Below, one piece after another: positions 22,002 to 42,959 of a stretch of 60,908 bases of DNA (the first letter of the stretch is position 1; each line of letters starts with the position of its first letter). The stretch is taken from the NCBI GenBank assembly GCA_027062285.1, contig JAMOTL010000007.1:1-60908 (forward strand). The letters are read 5' to 3'. The stretch comes from Nautiliaceae bacterium (lineage in GTDB: Bacteria > Campylobacterota > Campylobacteria > Campylobacterales > Nautiliaceae). A program made the translations under genes and the position numbers. The notes beneath the pieces are model-generated. The model was not told the DNA's origin. It saw only the letters and a list, made by a program, of their open reading frames with translations, and did no database searches.

Positions 22002-22078
22002 GCGGGCTTAGCTCAGTTGGCTAGAGCGCCACCTTGCCAAGGTGGAGGTCGCGGGTTCGAGTCCCGTAGCCCGCTCCA
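22002..22078 (+). tRNA. tRNA-Gly (GCC)
   Basis: Complete cloverleaf. The acceptor arms GCGGGCT/AGCCCGC pair fully, the anticodon loop is CTTGCCAAG with anticodon GCC, and the T-loop GGTTCGAGTCC is intact. CCA is encoded. It is the first of four clustered tRNA genes. Confidence 0.96.
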
Positions 22079-22102
22079 GTAAATTCAAAGCTTTGAATTT
22101 AC
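22079..22102. repeat. 24-base perfect palindrome between tRNA-Gly and tRNA-Cys
   Basis: The 12-base half-site GTAAATTCAAAG is followed directly by its exact reverse complement. It begins with the base after the encoded CCA of tRNA-Gly and ends two bases before tRNA-Cys, filling the spacer. In RNA it would form a hairpin that separates the two tRNAs. Confidence 0.85.
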
Positions 22103-22104
22103 AT

Positions 22105-22179
22105 GGCGCCATAGCCAAGTGGCTAAGGCAGGGGCCTGCAAAGCCCTGATCCCCGGTTCGAATCCGGGTGGCGCCTCCA
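22105..22179 (+). tRNA. tRNA-Cys (GCA)
   Basis: The acceptor arms GGCGCCA/TGGCGCC pair perfectly. The anticodon loop CTGCAAA gives anticodon GCA, and the discriminator base is T, as expected for tRNA-Cys. The T-arm GGTTCGAATCC is normal and CCA is encoded. Confidence 0.95.
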
Positions 22180-22222
22180 TTAAGCTTATTTTAAGAAAGT
22201 TATGATAAACTTTCAACCTCAA

Positions 22223-22310
22223 GCCCGGGTGGCGGAACTGGTAGACGCAAGGGACTTAAAATCCCTCGGGCATTTCGCCCGTGCCGGTTCGAGTCCGGCC
22301 CCGGGCACCA
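22223..22310 (+). tRNA. tRNA-Leu (TAA)
   Basis: Class II tRNA of 88 bases. It has acceptor GCCCGGG, anticodon TAA in ACTTAAAAT, a long variable arm (CTCGGGCATTTCGCCCGT), a normal T-arm and an encoded CCA. Confidence 0.95.
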
Positions 22311-22344
22311 CTTACTTATATCTAAGTTCTCAATCTTTTTGTAT

Positions 22345-22434
<90 letters not shown>

Positions 22435-36907: not shown

Positions 36908-36983
36908 GGGGACATAGCTCAGCTGGTAGAGCACCACGCTGGCAGCGTGGGGGTCACGGGTTCGAGTCCCGTTGTCTCCACCA
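36908..36983 (+). tRNA. tRNA-Ala (GGC)
   Basis: The cloverleaf of 76 bases has acceptor GGGGACA pairing with TGTCTCC (one G-T pair), D-arm GCTCAGCTGGTAGAGC, anticodon GGC in CTGGCAG, T-arm GGGTTCGAGTCCC and an encoded CCA. The cassette at 36988-39210 begins four bases after it. tRNA 3' ends are common integration sites. Confidence 0.96.
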
Positions 36984-36987
36984 CTAC

Positions 36988-38004
36988 TTAAATTACCTCA
37001 TAAATATAACTATTTTTACCCTCATCAAAAACCATTAAATAATTATTTATTTTGTCAGTTACTTCAATATCAGCGTTTTTACCCAAAACAAGCAAATAAA
37101 ACTTGTCATTTTCAATTTTTTTATTTTCAAGTAATGTTTTATTAGTAATCATTTTATTATTTAATTTTAAATAAAAACTAAATCCAAAAGGGTCGGTTTT
37201 ACTCAACTCTTCCATATATTCAAAAGCTTTTTTTATAACCTCATCATCCTTGGCATAAAAACATAAGTTTTGAATTTTATACTCTTTAAATATTTCGTAA
37301 CCTTTCGAATAAGGACTATTCATAAAATTTTTAAGCCCTTTTTCGAATTCATCCTTTTTATTACTTTTAACAAAAACAAAATAGACCCTTGGAGAAATCG
37401 GCTTAAATTTTATTGCGTACAGATAATAATCCCCTTTGATTTTTTCTCTTATCTCATTCAATCTGTTTTTTATAAACAGGTCCTGTTTTATCCTTGGAAA
37501 GTGCTGATAAACAACCAAAATTTCACTATTTTCAAAAAATTTTTCTATTTCATCAAAAAATATGTATTTACCTCCCTTTTTATTACTTTTTTTAACGCTT
37601 TTAACTTCTATTCCGTTATCCGGGTCAACAAAAACCACACTACAGTTTTTTATACTATCAACGGCTCTTTTTATCCATTTTTCTCTTTTTTCAGTTTTTT
37701 TTTTAAAGCCATCTTCAATAAAATCACCAAAATACTTTATCTTCTGATTTTCAAAATATTCTTTTAATTTAGTTTCTAAATTTTTAATATCTCTTTTGGT
37801 ATTTGCTACATTTTCAAGCACACTTATAAGCTCTAAATCATTAAGTTTGGAATATTTATGATAGTCTTTATGTTTGCCGTCATTATTGTGTGTTTCATCG
37901 GGATAGAGATACCATACAACTCCTACACTCTTATTACCGAATAATCTTTTAATTAAAATAAATTTACTATAATCCTCAATATCCCCCGAATACCTGTTTT
38001 GCAT
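36988..38004 (-). CDS. Uncharacterised DPDNG-motif protein
   Basis: Function not known. From the ATG at 38004 (AAAGGAG 8 bases upstream) the protein has 338 aa. It begins QNRYSGDIEDYSKF, then VGVVWYLYPDE with a His/Asp-rich NNDGKHKDYH. A buried strand VVFVDPDNGIE is at about 124-134, and VVYQHFPR at about 164-171. These blocks resemble a widespread uncharacterised family that I recall only as hypothetical. The DPDNG and VVYQH strands suggest a Rossmann- or nuclease-like alpha/beta core. The C-terminal 100 residues seem extra. It overlaps the upstream gene by 29 bases. Confidence 0.7.
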   Translation of the reverse strand: MQNRYSGDIEDYSKFILIKRLFGNKSVGVVWYLYPDETHNNDGKHKDYHKYSKLNDLELISVLENVANTKRDIKNLETKLKEYFENQKIKYFGDFIEDGFKKKTEKREKWIKRAVDSIKNCSVVFVDPDNGIEVKSVKKSNKKGGKYIFFDEIEKFFENSEILVVYQHFPRIKQDLFIKNRLNEIREKIKGDYYLYAIKFKPISPRVYFVFVKSNKKDEFEKGLKNFMNSPYSKGYEIFKEYKIQNLCFYAKDDEVIKKAFEYMEELSKTDPFGFSFYLKLNNKMITNKTLLENKKIENDKFYLLVLGKNADIEVTDKINNYLMVFDEGKNSYIYEVI

Positions 38005-38686
38005 TTTTTTCTCCTTTAAAAGTTTCAAAATCTTTTTTTATTTTTTCATCAAAAGGTAATAAAAAATATCCGCTTTCATCTCCTAAAATCATAGTTTTAT
38101 AGGGCGTATTTAAAAACATCTCCCCAAGCTTCCATGAAATATATGCATCAAGTTCATCATCAATATTTATTTTCATATCTTTAATTATTTTAAGCTCTTT
38201 TAATTCATCTACTATTTCTTTTAAAATTTCCTTTTTATTTTCCCCTTTTTTATATTGAAAGTTTTCTCTTTTACCTTTTAACCATATCCATATTGCTAAA
38301 GCAGGATGAACTTCTATTAGTTTTATTTTTTGGATATTTAAATCTTCTCTTTTTAATACAAGAGAGATATCTTCTCTTTTACAATATAATGAAGGATAAC
38401 CTATCACATACTCGGACATCAGCCAATGAGAACATCCGGCTATCGGCAATACAGAAACACCTGGTGGTAACTTTTTTTTATATCTAAAAAAATATTCAAC
38501 CGGCCTATAATAAAAATTAAAAGTTTTCATATCAAAACTTAAAGGCGCATCCCAGCAAATTAACGTATCTTTATCTAAAGACTCAATAAAACTTTTTAAT
38601 CTCTCCACATTGTATTTTTGGAAACTTTTCCCATCAAATACGACATTATCTTTTCTTGGTGCAGGGTCTATTCCATATATTTTCAT
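37976..38686 (-). CDS. DUF429-type RNase H-fold protein
   Basis: A 236-aa protein with the layout of DUF429 (COG2410-like) predicted nucleases. The first strand is YGIDPAPR with Asp7, the next is ICWDAPLS with Asp46, then IEVHPA (Glu125, His127) and a late helix DDELDAYISWKLGEMF with Asp177/Asp180. These acidic positions form the usual RNase H-like metal site. The enzyme activity of the family is predicted, not established. The start overlaps the upstream stop as ATGA, so it is coupled to the 175-aa gene. Confidence 0.7.
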   Translation of the reverse strand: MKIYGIDPAPRKDNVVFDGKSFQKYNVERLKSFIESLDKDTLICWDAPLSFDMKTFNFYYRPVEYFFRYKKKLPPGVSVLPIAGCSHWLMSEYVIGYPSLYCKREDISLVLKREDLNIQKIKLIEVHPALAIWIWLKGKRENFQYKKGENKKEILKEIVDELKELKIIKDMKINIDDELDAYISWKLGEMFLNTPYKTMILGDESGYFLLPFDEKIKKDFETFKGEKNAKQVFGGY

Positions 38687-39210
38687 ATGTCTCCTTTTTT
38701 TAAAATATTACCATCCTTATCTAGCACAATATAATTATCAAACCAGTCACTTTTATAAATATAATTTTCTATTTTGCCCCACAGTTTTAATTTTCCTTTA
38801 TTTTCTAAATAGTGCCTTTTTACATAAAATTTTATATATTCAAGCTCTTGGTCTTTATTTTCAAAACTTCTTCTATCAATCAAAATATTTCTAACTCCTT
38901 CCATTGCGACTAGTGAAAATATCGGCTGAGACTTTTTTTGAAAATTAGTATTAACAAATAAACGTCCAGGTTTTTTACTTAGTTTTTCTCTAATCTTTTC
39001 AAAAAGCTTTAAATTTTTTTCATCCCCGCATAACTCTAATACTTTTTTTAAAAAGACTTCACTTCCTAAATGAAAATCGTATGAAAATTGATATCTTAAA
39101 AACTCCTCAATACCGTTTTGTTCTAGATATTCTATCTTTTTTAAACAAGGTCTTACATCAATATATCCAAGCTTTTTACATAAGCTGATTCTATCTTTTA
39201 TCTTTATCAC
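38683..39210 (-). CDS. Unknown 175-residue protein, first gene of the cassette
   Basis: Not recognised. The soluble protein is rich in Lys/Glu, with a probable helical N-terminal half (about 1-85), then a beta-rich part with RLFVNTNFQKKSQPIF and a C-terminal segment ending VLDKDGNILKKGD. No signal peptide or membrane helix is seen. The start is GTG at 39210 with AAGGAG 6 bases upstream. It is divergent from the WYL regulator over an 82-base gap and coupled to the DUF429-type gene. Confidence 0.65.
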   Translation of the reverse strand: MIKIKDRISLCKKLGYIDVRPCLKKIEYLEQNGIEEFLRYQFSYDFHLGSEVFLKKVLELCGDEKNLKLFEKIREKLSKKPGRLFVNTNFQKKSQPIFSLVAMEGVRNILIDRRSFENKDQELEYIKFYVKRHYLENKGKLKLWGKIENYIYKSDWFDNYIVLDKDGNILKKGDI

Positions 39211-39251: not shown

Positions 39252-39292
39252 ATATTATGTCGTTTTTGATAAAATAAGCAAAAAGGCTTCTT

Positions 39293-40201
39293 ATGAAAGC
39301 TAAAGAATATACTAAAACACTCTCAATTTTACTGGATTTAATTAATAGGTTTTATTTAGGAGAGCATTTAAGTACCTCGGACATAGAAAATTTATATAAA
39401 GTTTCAAAAAGAACCGCTCAAAGATATATAAATTATTTAAAAACTGCCGGATTTGATATTAAAAAAAAGAATAAAAAATACTATCTTAATACTTTAATTG
39501 ATTTGGAAAAAGAGACAATTTTTGAAGCTATTTTATCTATCGCCAAAAACGCGGGAATAGATGAAAACATATTGCCTCTACTTAATAAATTAAAACTAAT
39601 TCGCGAAGAAAACGTTTTTTATTCAAAACTTGATATTGAAAAAATAAAACCTTTAACGTTTAGAAAAATAGAAGAAGCCATCAAAAACAAAAAAATAATC
39701 AAAATGAAATATAAAATGAATAATAAACTCATAGATATGGATATAAAACCTCTTAAGATTTCCAATTTTGACGGATATTGGTATGTAAACGCTTTAAATC
39801 ATAAAAATGAATATAGAACTTATCATATAAAAAGTATAAAACATCTTGAAATCACGAATAAAACTTTTAATGTAAAAGAAAACATATTAAAAAATTTAGA
39901 TAAAGCGGTAAACAGCTGGTATAACCCTAATATCAAACCTTTTTTAGTAGAACTGTTTGCCGATGAAAACGCTACAAAATATCTTCAAAGAATTCCCCTC
40001 TCAAAAACCCAAAAAATCGTTAAAAATTCTAACGGTACTTCCACAATATATCTTGAAATAACTAATAAAAACGAAATAATTAGAAAACTTCTTATGTGGA
40101 TACCAAATTTGATAGTATTAGAGCCTAAATGGCTAAAAGAAGAAGTCGACAACCGTATAAAAGAATATATCAAATTAAACAAAAAGGATTTTTGTGTATA
40201 G
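39293..40201 (+). CDS. WYL-domain transcriptional regulator
   Basis: A 302-aa regulator. It has an N-terminal winged helix-turn-helix at about 20-65 (STSDIENLYKVSKRTAQRYI), a WYL domain at about 120-205 with GYWYVNALNH and YRTYHIKSIKHLEI, and a C-terminal WCX-like extension ending EVDNRIKEYI. This order matches PafBC/BrxR/CapW-type proteins, many of which repress phage-defence or stress operons and sense a nucleic-acid ligand. Its stop overlaps the GTG of the ABC exporter, and it is divergent from the 37-39 kb cassette. Confidence 0.85.
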   Translation: MKAKEYTKTLSILLDLINRFYLGEHLSTSDIENLYKVSKRTAQRYINYLKTAGFDIKKKNKKYYLNTLIDLEKETIFEAILSIAKNAGIDENILPLLNKLKLIREENVFYSKLDIEKIKPLTFRKIEEAIKNKKIIKMKYKMNNKLIDMDIKPLKISNFDGYWYVNALNHKNEYRTYHIKSIKHLEITNKTFNVKENILKNLDKAVNSWYNPNIKPFLVELFADENATKYLQRIPLSKTQKIVKNSNGTSTIYLEITNKNEIIRKLLMWIPNLIVLEPKWLKEEVDNRIKEYIKLNKKDFCV

Positions 40202-41888
40202 TTTTAAAAAACTTCTAAAAGAGATAAAAAAATACAAACGAGAATTTATTTTAGCACAGATTATCGCTCTGATTGCTACGATTATTTCCATTCCCATACC
40301 TATGCTTATGCCTCTTTTAATAGATGAAGTTTTACTGAAAAAGCCCGGGTTTTGGACTGAGAGTATAAGTCATTTTTTCGGTGAGTGTTCGGCGTTTTGT
40401 TATGTAATGGTCACTCTTTTTGTGGTAGTCTTTTTAAGAGCGGCGTTTGTGGGACTTAATATTTTACAGACCTATTTTTTTGAAAAAATTACAAAAGACA
40501 TTACTTATAAAATCAGGATAAGAGTCCTAAATCACCTAAAACACCTCTCGATAAACGAATACGAAAACCTAAAAACAGGAGATATAGCAAGCCGCCTTAT
40601 CAGTGACGTAAACACGATTGAAGAATTTTTAATAAAATCCGTATCCAAATTCGTTATCTCTTTTTTGACTCTTATAGGAGTGGCGGCGGTGCTTTTATTG
40701 ATAAACTGGAAACTAGGACTTTTTATACTGTTTCTTAATCCTTTTGTAGTGGTATTATCCGGGAAAATTGCCAGAAAAGTAAAAAAATACAAACGCGAAC
40801 AAAACAAAACAATAAGCATTTTTCAAGAAGCTTTAATAGAAACGCTTGAGCTGTTTGAACAGATAAAAGCTTTCAATAAAGAAAACTACTTTTTCAAAAG
40901 ACTCTTTGAACTTGCGCGTGGGCTTAAAGAAAAATCATTTAATTTCAACTACAAAAGCGAAGCTTTCAGTAAACTAAGCTTTCTTATTTTTTTAATAGGA
41001 TTTGAAATATTCAGAGCCGCGGGAATCTTAGCCGTAGCGTATGACAGCTTATCAATAGGACTTATGCTTGCGGTTTACGGATATCTTTGGTTTATGATGA
41101 CTCCGATTCAGGAAATCATATCGATTCAATACGCGTATTTCGGAGCAAAAGCGGCTCTTGAGAGAATAAACGAAACCCTCTCACTCCCAAAAGAGCCTAT
41201 ATTTCCTCACAAAAAAGACCCGTTTAAAGATTTGGTAAACGTTGAGGTAAAAGACGTTTCATTCAAATATAAAGAGAGTGAGTGGATTTTAAAAAACGCT
41301 TCTGCTGTTTTTGAGCCTAAAAAAATTACGGCTCTTATCGGTGCAAGCGGCGGAGGAAAAACGACTCTTGCCAAAATCATCGCCGGATTTTTTACCCCGA
41401 ATGAAGGAGATGTTTTATATAACAATATAACTTATAAAGAAATAGGACTTGATAAAATCAGAGAGAACGTAAACCTGATACTCCAGGAGACAAGACTCTT
41501 TAACGACACCCTGCGTTTTAACCTAACCCTTGGTAAAGATTTTGATGAAAAAGAGATTTGGAAGGCTTTAAAGTTAGCCGAACTTGAAGAAGTTGTAAAA
41601 AAATGGCCAAAAGGGCTTGATACGTATGTGGGTAAAAACGGAGTGAAATTAAGCGGCGGACAAAAACAGCGCGTTGCAATCGCCAGAGCTCTTTTACACA
41701 AACCAAAAATTGTTATACTTGACGAATCAACTTCCGCTCTTGATATCGATACGGAAGAGAAAGTATTTAAAAACATAGAGCCGTTTTTAAAAAGCAGAAC
41801 ATCGATTATCATAGCCCACAGGGCTGAAACAATTGCAAAAGCCGACGAAATTTATATGATAAAAAATCGCTCGTTAATCAAGCTCTAA
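40194..41888 (+). CDS. ABC exporter, fused membrane and ATPase domains
   Basis: A 564-aa half-transporter of the MsbA/ABCB type. About six membrane helices occupy residues 1-310, followed by an ATPase with Walker A GASGGGKTT, signature LSGGQKQR, Walker B IVILDES and H-loop IIAHRAET. It would work as a homodimer exporting lipid, peptide or drug; the substrate is not clear. The start is GTG at 40194, supported by AAAAAGGA, and overlaps the WYL gene by 8 bases, so the two are translationally coupled. Confidence 0.88.
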   Translation: MYSFKKLLKEIKKYKREFILAQIIALIATIISIPIPMLMPLLIDEVLLKKPGFWTESISHFFGECSAFCYVMVTLFVVVFLRAAFVGLNILQTYFFEKITKDITYKIRIRVLNHLKHLSINEYENLKTGDIASRLISDVNTIEEFLIKSVSKFVISFLTLIGVAAVLLLINWKLGLFILFLNPFVVVLSGKIARKVKKYKREQNKTISIFQEALIETLELFEQIKAFNKENYFFKRLFELARGLKEKSFNFNYKSEAFSKLSFLIFLIGFEIFRAAGILAVAYDSLSIGLMLAVYGYLWFMMTPIQEIISIQYAYFGAKAALERINETLSLPKEPIFPHKKDPFKDLVNVEVKDVSFKYKESEWILKNASAVFEPKKITALIGASGGGKTTLAKIIAGFFTPNEGDVLYNNITYKEIGLDKIRENVNLILQETRLFNDTLRFNLTLGKDFDEKEIWKALKLAELEEVVKKWPKGLDTYVGKNGVKLSGGQKQRVAIARALLHKPKIVILDESTSALDIDTEEKVFKNIEPFLKSRTSIIIAHRAETIAKADEIYMIKNRSLIKL

Positions 41889-42959
41889 AAATTTTTTAGC
41901 TCCTTTAAGCCTTGCGGTGTGCTTTTTTATCCAACCGTCAAACTCTTCCATTCCTTTGTTTTTACACATCGCAAAAAGCTCGTAATAAGAATGATTTGCA
42001 TATCTTTTTTTAAATTCTTTTTTAGGAAGTTTTATAGCTTTTTTGGCTTCTTTTTTTAAATCGTTGTATTTTTTTAAAAACTTCTTCTCAATTTCTATAA
42101 AATACTCATATTTTTCACTTTTTTTATTCAAGATATCCTTATACTCATGTTCTCTTTTTTCCAAAACGGCCGCAACTATTTCATGAGGTTGAATCTTACC
42201 AAGCAGTTTATGTCGTCTTAAATACTCTTTGGTTTTAACTTTAACAAATTGTAAATCTTCGAAAATTAAAACCCATCCTTCAATCCCTTTTTTAGTTTCA
42301 GCAAGTTTTATAAATTCTTCAAGACTTTTAACCTCAAATTCTTTTGCATATTTTATACCTCTTTTTTCAGCCTCTTTTTCAAATTCCAAATCATATTCTC
42401 CGGTATTCAAATCCCTTACCTGAATAAGTATCAAATCCTCTTTCCCATAATCCATAACTACTTGAGATTTAGGAGAAATATATTCGAATATCGGAATTTT
42501 GTTTTCTTTAAATTTATCTAAAATATACTGCTTTATATGAGGATTTTCAAGCATCATTTCATTTGCTCTTTTTGCCTGATACGCTTCAAAAGAAAGCTTC
42601 GTTTTAAAATAAATTTTCCCGTCAATCAAAACGGGCTGTAAAAGGCTTCCGTCAATTTTTTCTACTGCTTTAATTATTTTTTTATTTTTTAAATCTTCTT
42701 CCATCCATCCCGGTGCCTGATTAAGTTCAAAAAATTTATGAAGCGCTATAAACCTTCTCCACTCTTTATCTTTAACAAAAGTAAGCCCTCTTAATTCATA
42801 AGAACCTTTATCTTTAAATTTCTCAAACTCTTCAAATTTAGCCTGTTTATAGTGATAAATAGCTACTTGTTTATCTAAAAAAGCATCCTCTTTTCTAAAA
42901 AACTGCTTTGAATTTTCTACGATATAATCACACTCCTCTTTTGTAGGCAAATAAAACAT
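41874..42959 (-). CDS. T4 Rnl1-like RNA ligase
   Basis: A 361-aa nucleotidyltransferase-fold protein. The adenylation motif is EKIDGSLLQPV with Lys101, close to the KEDGS at Lys99 of T4 RNA ligase 1. An upstream YELRGLTF has the expected ATP-contact Arg57. Motif IV appears as GIEGWVLIFED and motif V as FVKVKTKEYL. The C-terminal 110 residues are helical. The T4 enzyme repairs tRNA cut by anticodon nucleases. A similar repair role is an inference. It converges on the ABC exporter with a 15-base overlap. Confidence 0.82.
   Translation of the reverse strand: MFYLPTKEECDYIVENSKQFFRKEDAFLDKQVAIYHYKQAKFEEFEKFKDKGSYELRGLTFVKDKEWRRFIALHKFFELNQAPGWMEEDLKNKKIIKAVEKIDGSLLQPVLIDGKIYFKTKLSFEAYQAKRANEMMLENPHIKQYILDKFKENKIPIFEYISPKSQVVMDYGKEDLILIQVRDLNTGEYDLEFEKEAEKRGIKYAKEFEVKSLEEFIKLAETKKGIEGWVLIFEDLQFVKVKTKEYLRRHKLLGKIQPHEIVAAVLEKREHEYKDILNKKSEKYEYFIEIEKKFLKKYNDLKKEAKKAIKLPKKEFKKRYANHSYYELFAMCKNKGMEEFDGWIKKHTARLKGAKKFLELD

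Follow-up and report, generated by a model that had tools for sequence, protein, structure and literature searches.

RlmJ, the 23S rRNA m6A2030 methyltransferase (PF04378; PDB 4blw, 6qe5, 2oo3), has a conserved motif-X N-terminus, a motif IV that reads D164-P-P-Y, and an extra C-terminal helix and strand; its essential residues are Y4, H6, K18 and D164, with K18 positioned by D15 (PMC3814359). PurZ carries Ser in place of the essential Asp13 of PurA; it has been reported from phages and also from a small number of archaea, and a dUTPase-like DutZ is present in every PurZ0 phage genome studied (PMC12884076). WYL regulators are described in two reports as accompanying phage-defence islands (PMC9122601, PMC9122588), and DUF429 proteins have an RNase H-like fold and are predicted nucleases (PMC3985635). 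Here we compare with these systems a gene and its relatives from a 60,908-nucleotide stretch of a Nautiliaceae bacterium contig (hereafter, the window).

An undescribed family with a conserved core

The gene starts at an ATG (38004-38002) on the minus strand, ends at a stop codon (36990-36988) and encodes 338 residues; a program-made list of open reading frames opens the same frame at a TTG eight codons upstream of this ATG. The four sequence blocks singled out in an earlier note on this DNA all lie within this one open minus-strand frame, at the coordinates it gave, and its numbering of Asp127, Asp129 and Asn130 is right for the ATG at 38004. As homologues with about 24-43% identity over the core occur across Campylobacterota and many other phyla, the frame is a real gene and not a product of chance.

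The window protein had no match to any Pfam, NCBIfam, PADLOC, PHROGs or PDB sequence profile. When two N-terminal peptide patterns were run against a set holding one genome for each species, 316 stretches came back, and 252 of them encode relatives, from both bacteria and archaea. The best 80 of these 252 scanned relatives, plus four viral contigs, were kept for an alignment of 86 rows that spans about 15 bacterial phyla and two archaea and has a common core of about 245 residues. None of the 86 members convincingly matched any Pfam, NCBIfam or PADLOC model, the PADLOC models of anti-phage systems included, so that the profile search did not place the protein in a characterised family; such a placement is what the earlier note had named as refuting it. 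A search of 50,697 phage records yielded no relative, and a literature search for the letters DPDNG returned no description of the family. The DPDNG family is real, and none of the libraries searched describes it. In Campylobacterota it is present in 13 of 397 genomes, a patchy, accessory pattern, and plasmid copies occur in Sulfuricurvum, Lacticaseibacillus and Ensifer.

Conservation was assessed over the 86 rows (65 effective sequences at 62% identity). Fifteen columns, mostly charged or polar, are invariant: M1, Q2, Y5, D8, D11, K14, W31, G43, R107, W110, D129, N130, K146, H168 and R206. The invariant charged residues point to an enzyme, and the earlier note's proposal of a conserved alpha/beta core belonging to an enzyme-like family not described before is supported. 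DPDNG is present in all rows save for single changes at positions 127, 128 and 131; in Sulfurovum-type proteins, Ala or Glu takes the place of D127. As purifying selection acts on related APDNG proteins (L008-L010; omega 0.06 and 0.11 in the two computable pairs), Asp at position 127 is not strictly needed. The motif itself is central, and its fixed points are Asp129 and Asn130; of the three residues that had been put forward for conservation mapping, it is Asp127 that does not hold.

A divergent branch from the window's own taxonomic family (genomes G040 and G428; 27% identity, E=1e-15) keeps Y5, G7, D8, D11, K14, W31, D42, G43, R107, W110, DPDNG, K146, E152, Y166 and H168, and is without Q2, R4, R171 and R206. 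As the scan used N-terminal patterns, the invariance of M1-Q2-R4-Y5 is inflated, whereas columns beyond residue ~20 are unaffected. The conservation table holds no Gly-rich SAM motif I; instead, WYLxPDExHNxDG follows strand 1, so that residues 27-44 occupy the place of the Gly-rich SAM loop of methyltransferases. Similarly, no conserved acid of motif II was found at the end of strand 89-92.

Table 1. Features of the family gene and its surroundings (positions in the window)
Feature	Position	Strand	Remarks
DPDNG-family protein, 338 aa	36988..38004	-	predicted RlmJ-like core, residues 1 to ~240, and fused C-terminal domain
Motif-X-like N-terminus, residues 1-16 (MQNRYSGDIEDYSKFI)	37957..38004	-	Y5, D8, D11, K14 invariant in 86 members and divergent branch
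First core strand and loop, residues 27-44 (VGVVWYLYPDETHNNDGK)	37873..37926	-	W31, D42, G43 conserved
R107, W110 (REKWI, residues 107-111)	37672..37686	-	invariant helix residues, divergent branch included
DPDNG, residues 127-131, motif IV position	37612..37626	-	D129, N130 invariant; D127 in 97% of rows
YQHFPR, residues 166-171, end of next strand	37492..37509	-	H168 invariant; R171 lost in divergent branch
C-terminal domain, residues ~242-338	36991..37281	-	separate 111-aa gene in same-genus G040 (L163:6763-7098)
tRNA-Ala(ggc)	36908..36983	+	3' end 4 bases from end of family gene
DUF429-like partner, 236 aa (predicted nuclease)	37976..38686	-	overlaps family gene by 29 bases
First operon gene, 175 aa, no known family	38683..39210	-	adjoins family gene in G040, G428
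Operator-like element TTTTATCAAAAACGACATAAT	39254..39274	-	between divergent WYL gene and operon
WYL-domain transcription factor	39293..40201	+	divergent from operon; adjoins unit in G040, G428

A predicted RlmJ-like fold with a remodelled active site

AlphaFold modelled the core of the window protein with a pLDDT of about 95, and a distant, independent member from a Lachnospiraceae genome with a pLDDT of 94.6 and a pTM of 0.92. In Foldseek searches against the PDB, RlmJ came first for both models (4blw; E=5.1e-4 and 2.1e-4, probability 1.00), at TM-scores that are modest (0.36-0.50, with an rmsd of 7-8 A). Every match under E=0.001 was RlmJ or its Legionella orthologue, and the matches thereafter were mostly SAM-dependent enzymes. 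The resemblance of the N-terminus and of DPDNG to RlmJ had been recorded ahead of the fold search. Of the two kinds of fold that the earlier note had proposed to compare, the search thus favoured SAM methyltransferases and not nucleases. Its reading of the four blocks as strands held for VGVVWYLYPDE, VVFVDPDNGIE and VVYQHFPR, which correspond to core strands 27-31, 123-127 and 162-168 of the model, whereas QNRYSGDIEDYSKF is predicted to form the N-terminal loop and first helix.

The likeness to RlmJ extends to individual positions. D11, K14 and D127 align with D15, K18 and D164 of RlmJ, and the first helix reads G7-D8-x-x-D11-x-x-K14 in the family and G11-N12-x-x-D15-x-x-K18 in RlmJ (family pattern G-[DN]-x-x-D-x-x-K). 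Asp-Pro at motif IV is common to both (D164-P165 in RlmJ), and both family models show the extra C-terminal helix and strand in the same secondary structure order. In contrast, DPDNG lacks the second proline and the aromatic residue of the RlmJ DPP(Y/F) motif, the HAGxG SAM loop is absent, RlmJ H6 and H19 have no equivalents (a Tyr lies nearby), and W195 is missing, with Y-x-H in its stead. At the level of profiles, hhalign gave no significant score against an RlmJ alignment (probability 1.3%, P 0.04), the best local match being motif IV and the following strand, or against an RsmD alignment. PF04378 did not match the window protein at E up to 1 and was absent among the 25 families listed for the 86 members. 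As these hhalign scores are not significant, we do not claim sequence-level homology to RlmJ; the comparison rests on fold and motif order. On the two models, the protein very probably adopts the class I methyltransferase fold in its RlmJ-type form. The protein is nevertheless not an RlmJ, because it has DPDNG, has no Gly-rich loop, and can replace D127 but not D129, N130, K146 or H168. We therefore file the family, by its predicted structure, as an RlmJ-like scaffold, and neither as RlmJ nor as a proven methyltransferase.

Other methyltransferases resemble the family less closely. Dam was among the weaker fold matches, and both Dam and M.TaqI combine, as the family does, an Asp/Asn-Pro at motif IV, which is catalytic in these two enzymes, with a residue of an N-terminal segment; however, their motif IV consensus [DN]-P-P-[FYW] is absent from the family. 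TcmP (TIGR04474) likewise has, by eye, a Lys early in the first helix, but it has a glycine-rich loop and lacks the N-terminal D-x-x-K pair, the reverse of the family, and a comparison with three TcmP sequences revealed no profile similarity (hhalign P 0.11, no sensible alignment). A reading of D-P-D as a HAD phosphatase signature was dropped, because the fold is not of that kind and the first Asp can be replaced.

A fused C-terminal domain

The earlier note had also taken the C-terminal ~100 residues for an addition, and comparison with relatives bears this out: ~97 residues have no counterpart in them and correspond to a separate gene in the sister genome G040. AlphaFold folds this region with low confidence (pLDDT 31-70). 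It aligns with the 111-aa product of the G040 gene, which sits directly downstream of the divergent relative, at 29% over 112 columns (E=1e-9); a search of 298 Campylobacterota genomes returned this gene and only two weak, broken matches. The C-terminal ~97 residues are an accessory protein that is rare in itself and here has become fused to the enzyme. Other family members have different in-frame C-terminal additions. In two Sphingopyxis genomes (L052:5989-7485 and L082:6001-7470), the family gene stands, by eye, in one frame with a TrmD-like (tRNA m1G37 methyltransferase) region, which could be a true fusion.

The operon and its surroundings

In the window, the family gene is the last of three genes in a tightly packed operon, preceded by the genes for the 175-aa protein and the DUF429-like protein (Table 1). 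The latter matched PF04250 at 6.9e-5 with 23.1 bits, against a cut-off of 23. Homologues of the 175-aa protein occur in 37 of 298 Campylobacterota genomes, and in a same-genus genome homologues of both upstream proteins adjoin a protein that matches the PADLOC Orf5 and HEC-06 models. Members of this 175-210 aa family (window 38683-39210; L149-L160) were also seen several times in defence-like islands, and beside a WYL regulator in Nautiliales-type genomes.

The element TTTTATCAAAAACGACATAAT is kept at the same position in four genomes, the window and three relatives, including one (G028) whose downstream gene differs, and the exact pattern occurs once in the whole window genome. The WYL gene, the 175-aa homologue and the family gene are found together in both genomes of the divergent branch. 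In G040, this unit lies near a tRNA Gly-Cys-Leu-Ser array; as the window has such an array (22002-22434) without the unit, the unit moves. No second copy of the tRNA-Ala 3' end was found near the island, the sole other match being tRNA-Gly at 22002-22078, so that tRNA-mediated insertion is not shown. Further along, an ABC transporter follows the WYL gene and is adjoined by a minus-strand gene (41874-42959) with a KIDGS motif, by eye a look-alike of T4 Rnl1-type RNA ligases.

Neighbourhoods of relatives

Pfam and PADLOC tallies of neighbouring genes revealed no one partner that all family members share. Many relatives are solitary genes beside unrelated housekeeping genes, so that a defence role is not demanded, and some copies adjoin tRNA- or ribosome-related genes. 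Three settings, however, are recurrent or conspicuous, the third being the PurZ-like cassettes described below. Macro-domain and McrBC genes lie beside the family gene in Bacillota and viral contigs, and on a conjugative Ensifer plasmid (L167:4014-6319) it stands between two GIY-YIG nuclease genes, the first of which PADLOC scores as UzuA (E=9e-83). Among 26 genomes tested, 11 have a separate RlmJ. Named by eye, a Three-Cys-motif (DUF5131-like) protein and TcmP lie near the family gene in Bradyrhizobium (L055:9982-12211, L065:10000-12248), as does a DUF5131-like protein in Clostridiales (L043:4292-5053).

In Alphaproteobacteria, the family gene was found beside a chromosomal cassette of a PurZ-like synthetase (GSEGKGK), an RNase_H_2 (YprB-like) exonuclease that is usually fused to a kinase-like part, and a dCTP-deaminase-like protein. 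PurZ-like cassettes were noted beside the family in eleven loci (L036, L037, L042, L055, L056, L057, L058, L065, L070, L081, L094) and in fused form in L075, from Chloroflexota, which has a kinase-PurZ fusion and in which no dCTP-deaminase-like gene was identified. These cassettes share with the phage PurZ/PurZ0 2-aminoadenine cassettes the Ser for the essential Asp and, in most cases, a protein of dUTPase/dCTP-deaminase fold; they differ in being bacterial and in having the YprB-like exonuclease and the kinase. As all the synthetases scored below the curated cut-off of the PurZ model, we call them PurZ-like and not PurZ. On the family tree, the association requires at least three separate changes. 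A single gain with two later losses would in principle also make three, but the branches concerned are distant from one another. PurZ is absent from the window's own locus, and the window genome has only one protein of PurA length (416 aa), which is below the PurZ cut-off. A search with a profile of the window DUF429-like protein missed the RNase_H_2 fusion proteins that the PurZ-like cassettes encode, and the two are linked only by weak Pfam DUF429 scores.

Discussion

The best explanation of these data, which we give about an even chance, is an RlmJ-like base-modifying accessory enzyme with SAM-type transfer, encoded in a defence-type operon. Such an enzyme would be built on the RlmJ-type variant of the class I (Rossmann-like) SAM methyltransferase fold, with its motif-X-like N-terminal segment (Y5, D8, D11, K14) closing over a pocket that may be formed by DPDNG (residues 127-131), H168 and K146. 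A nucleobase would be modified there, and the likeliest reaction is the transfer of a methyl group, or one related to it, from SAM to an exocyclic amine, either in a nucleic acid or in a nucleotide; as the active site is remodelled, the exact group or substrate presumably differs from that of RlmJ. Taken by itself, SAM-dependent transfer to a base could go either way. The divergent WYL regulator probably controls the three-gene operon, which lies on variable cargo beside a tRNA and would most likely act in defence against phages or plasmids. A defence or modified-nucleotide context is suggested by the WYL gene with its operator-like element, the McrBC and macro neighbours, UzuA beside the plasmid copy, and the PurZ-like cassettes, and we regard such a role, too, as evenly poised.

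The same conservation pattern could mean that the methyltransferase fold has been repurposed, so that a nucleotide or nucleic acid would be hydrolysed or rearranged via D129, N130, K146 and H168, while basic residues hold phosphates. It is these four residues, together with R107 and W110, that are invariant, and not the methyltransferase-type D127; the family has no Gly-rich loop, and enzymes of nucleotide metabolism (PurZ-like, dCTP-deaminase-like, kinase, exonuclease) are among its neighbours. Nonetheless, the nearest solved folds are nearly all SAM-binding enzymes and the D..K pair of the RlmJ motif X is kept, and we consider repurposing a possibility to be taken seriously, although rather unlikely. 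The loss of the SAM motifs, and of D127 in one clade, might instead indicate a degenerate methyltransferase, an inactive structural or regulatory operon member that only binds nucleic acid or a partner. Purifying selection and fifteen invariant, mostly charged or polar columns over 86 rows (65 effective sequences) argue against this, and make it improbable.

A nearest fold of RlmJ is also what would be expected if the protein were simply an RlmJ-type RNA methyltransferase that acts on rRNA or tRNA in a housekeeping role and is patchily distributed by chance. Copies by tRNA- and ribosome-related genes, and the shared frame with TrmD in the two Sphingopyxis, fit this reading; in contrast, the presence in so few Campylobacterota genomes (13/397), the plasmid copies and defence-gene neighbours, and the separate RlmJ in 11 of the 26 genomes tested do not, and it seems quite unlikely. 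RlmJ is a core gene, whereas the family occurs in variable islands. Alternatively, the family might be a base-modifying or base-sensing enzyme of bacterial chromosomal cassettes for an unusual purine nucleotide, in which a PurZ-like synthetase with Ser at the essential Asp position is accompanied by a protein of dUTPase/dCTP-deaminase fold, a YprB-like exonuclease and a nucleotide kinase, and which would be used against, or taken from, 2-aminoadenine phages; DPDNG would then perform a reaction unseen in RlmJ. We think this unlikely, if somewhat less so than a housekeeping substrate.

The reading as an RlmJ-like accessory enzyme concerns hundreds of members from about 15 bacterial phyla and archaea, which have invariant, catalytic-looking residues and are nameless in the protein-family libraries searched. 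The fold of the family can now be stated, as a prediction, and tested. Overall, given its repeated ties to WYL-flanked islands, McrBC/macro loci and PurZ-like cassettes, the DPDNG family is a concrete candidate for modifying nucleic acids or nucleotides in a new way as part of defence.
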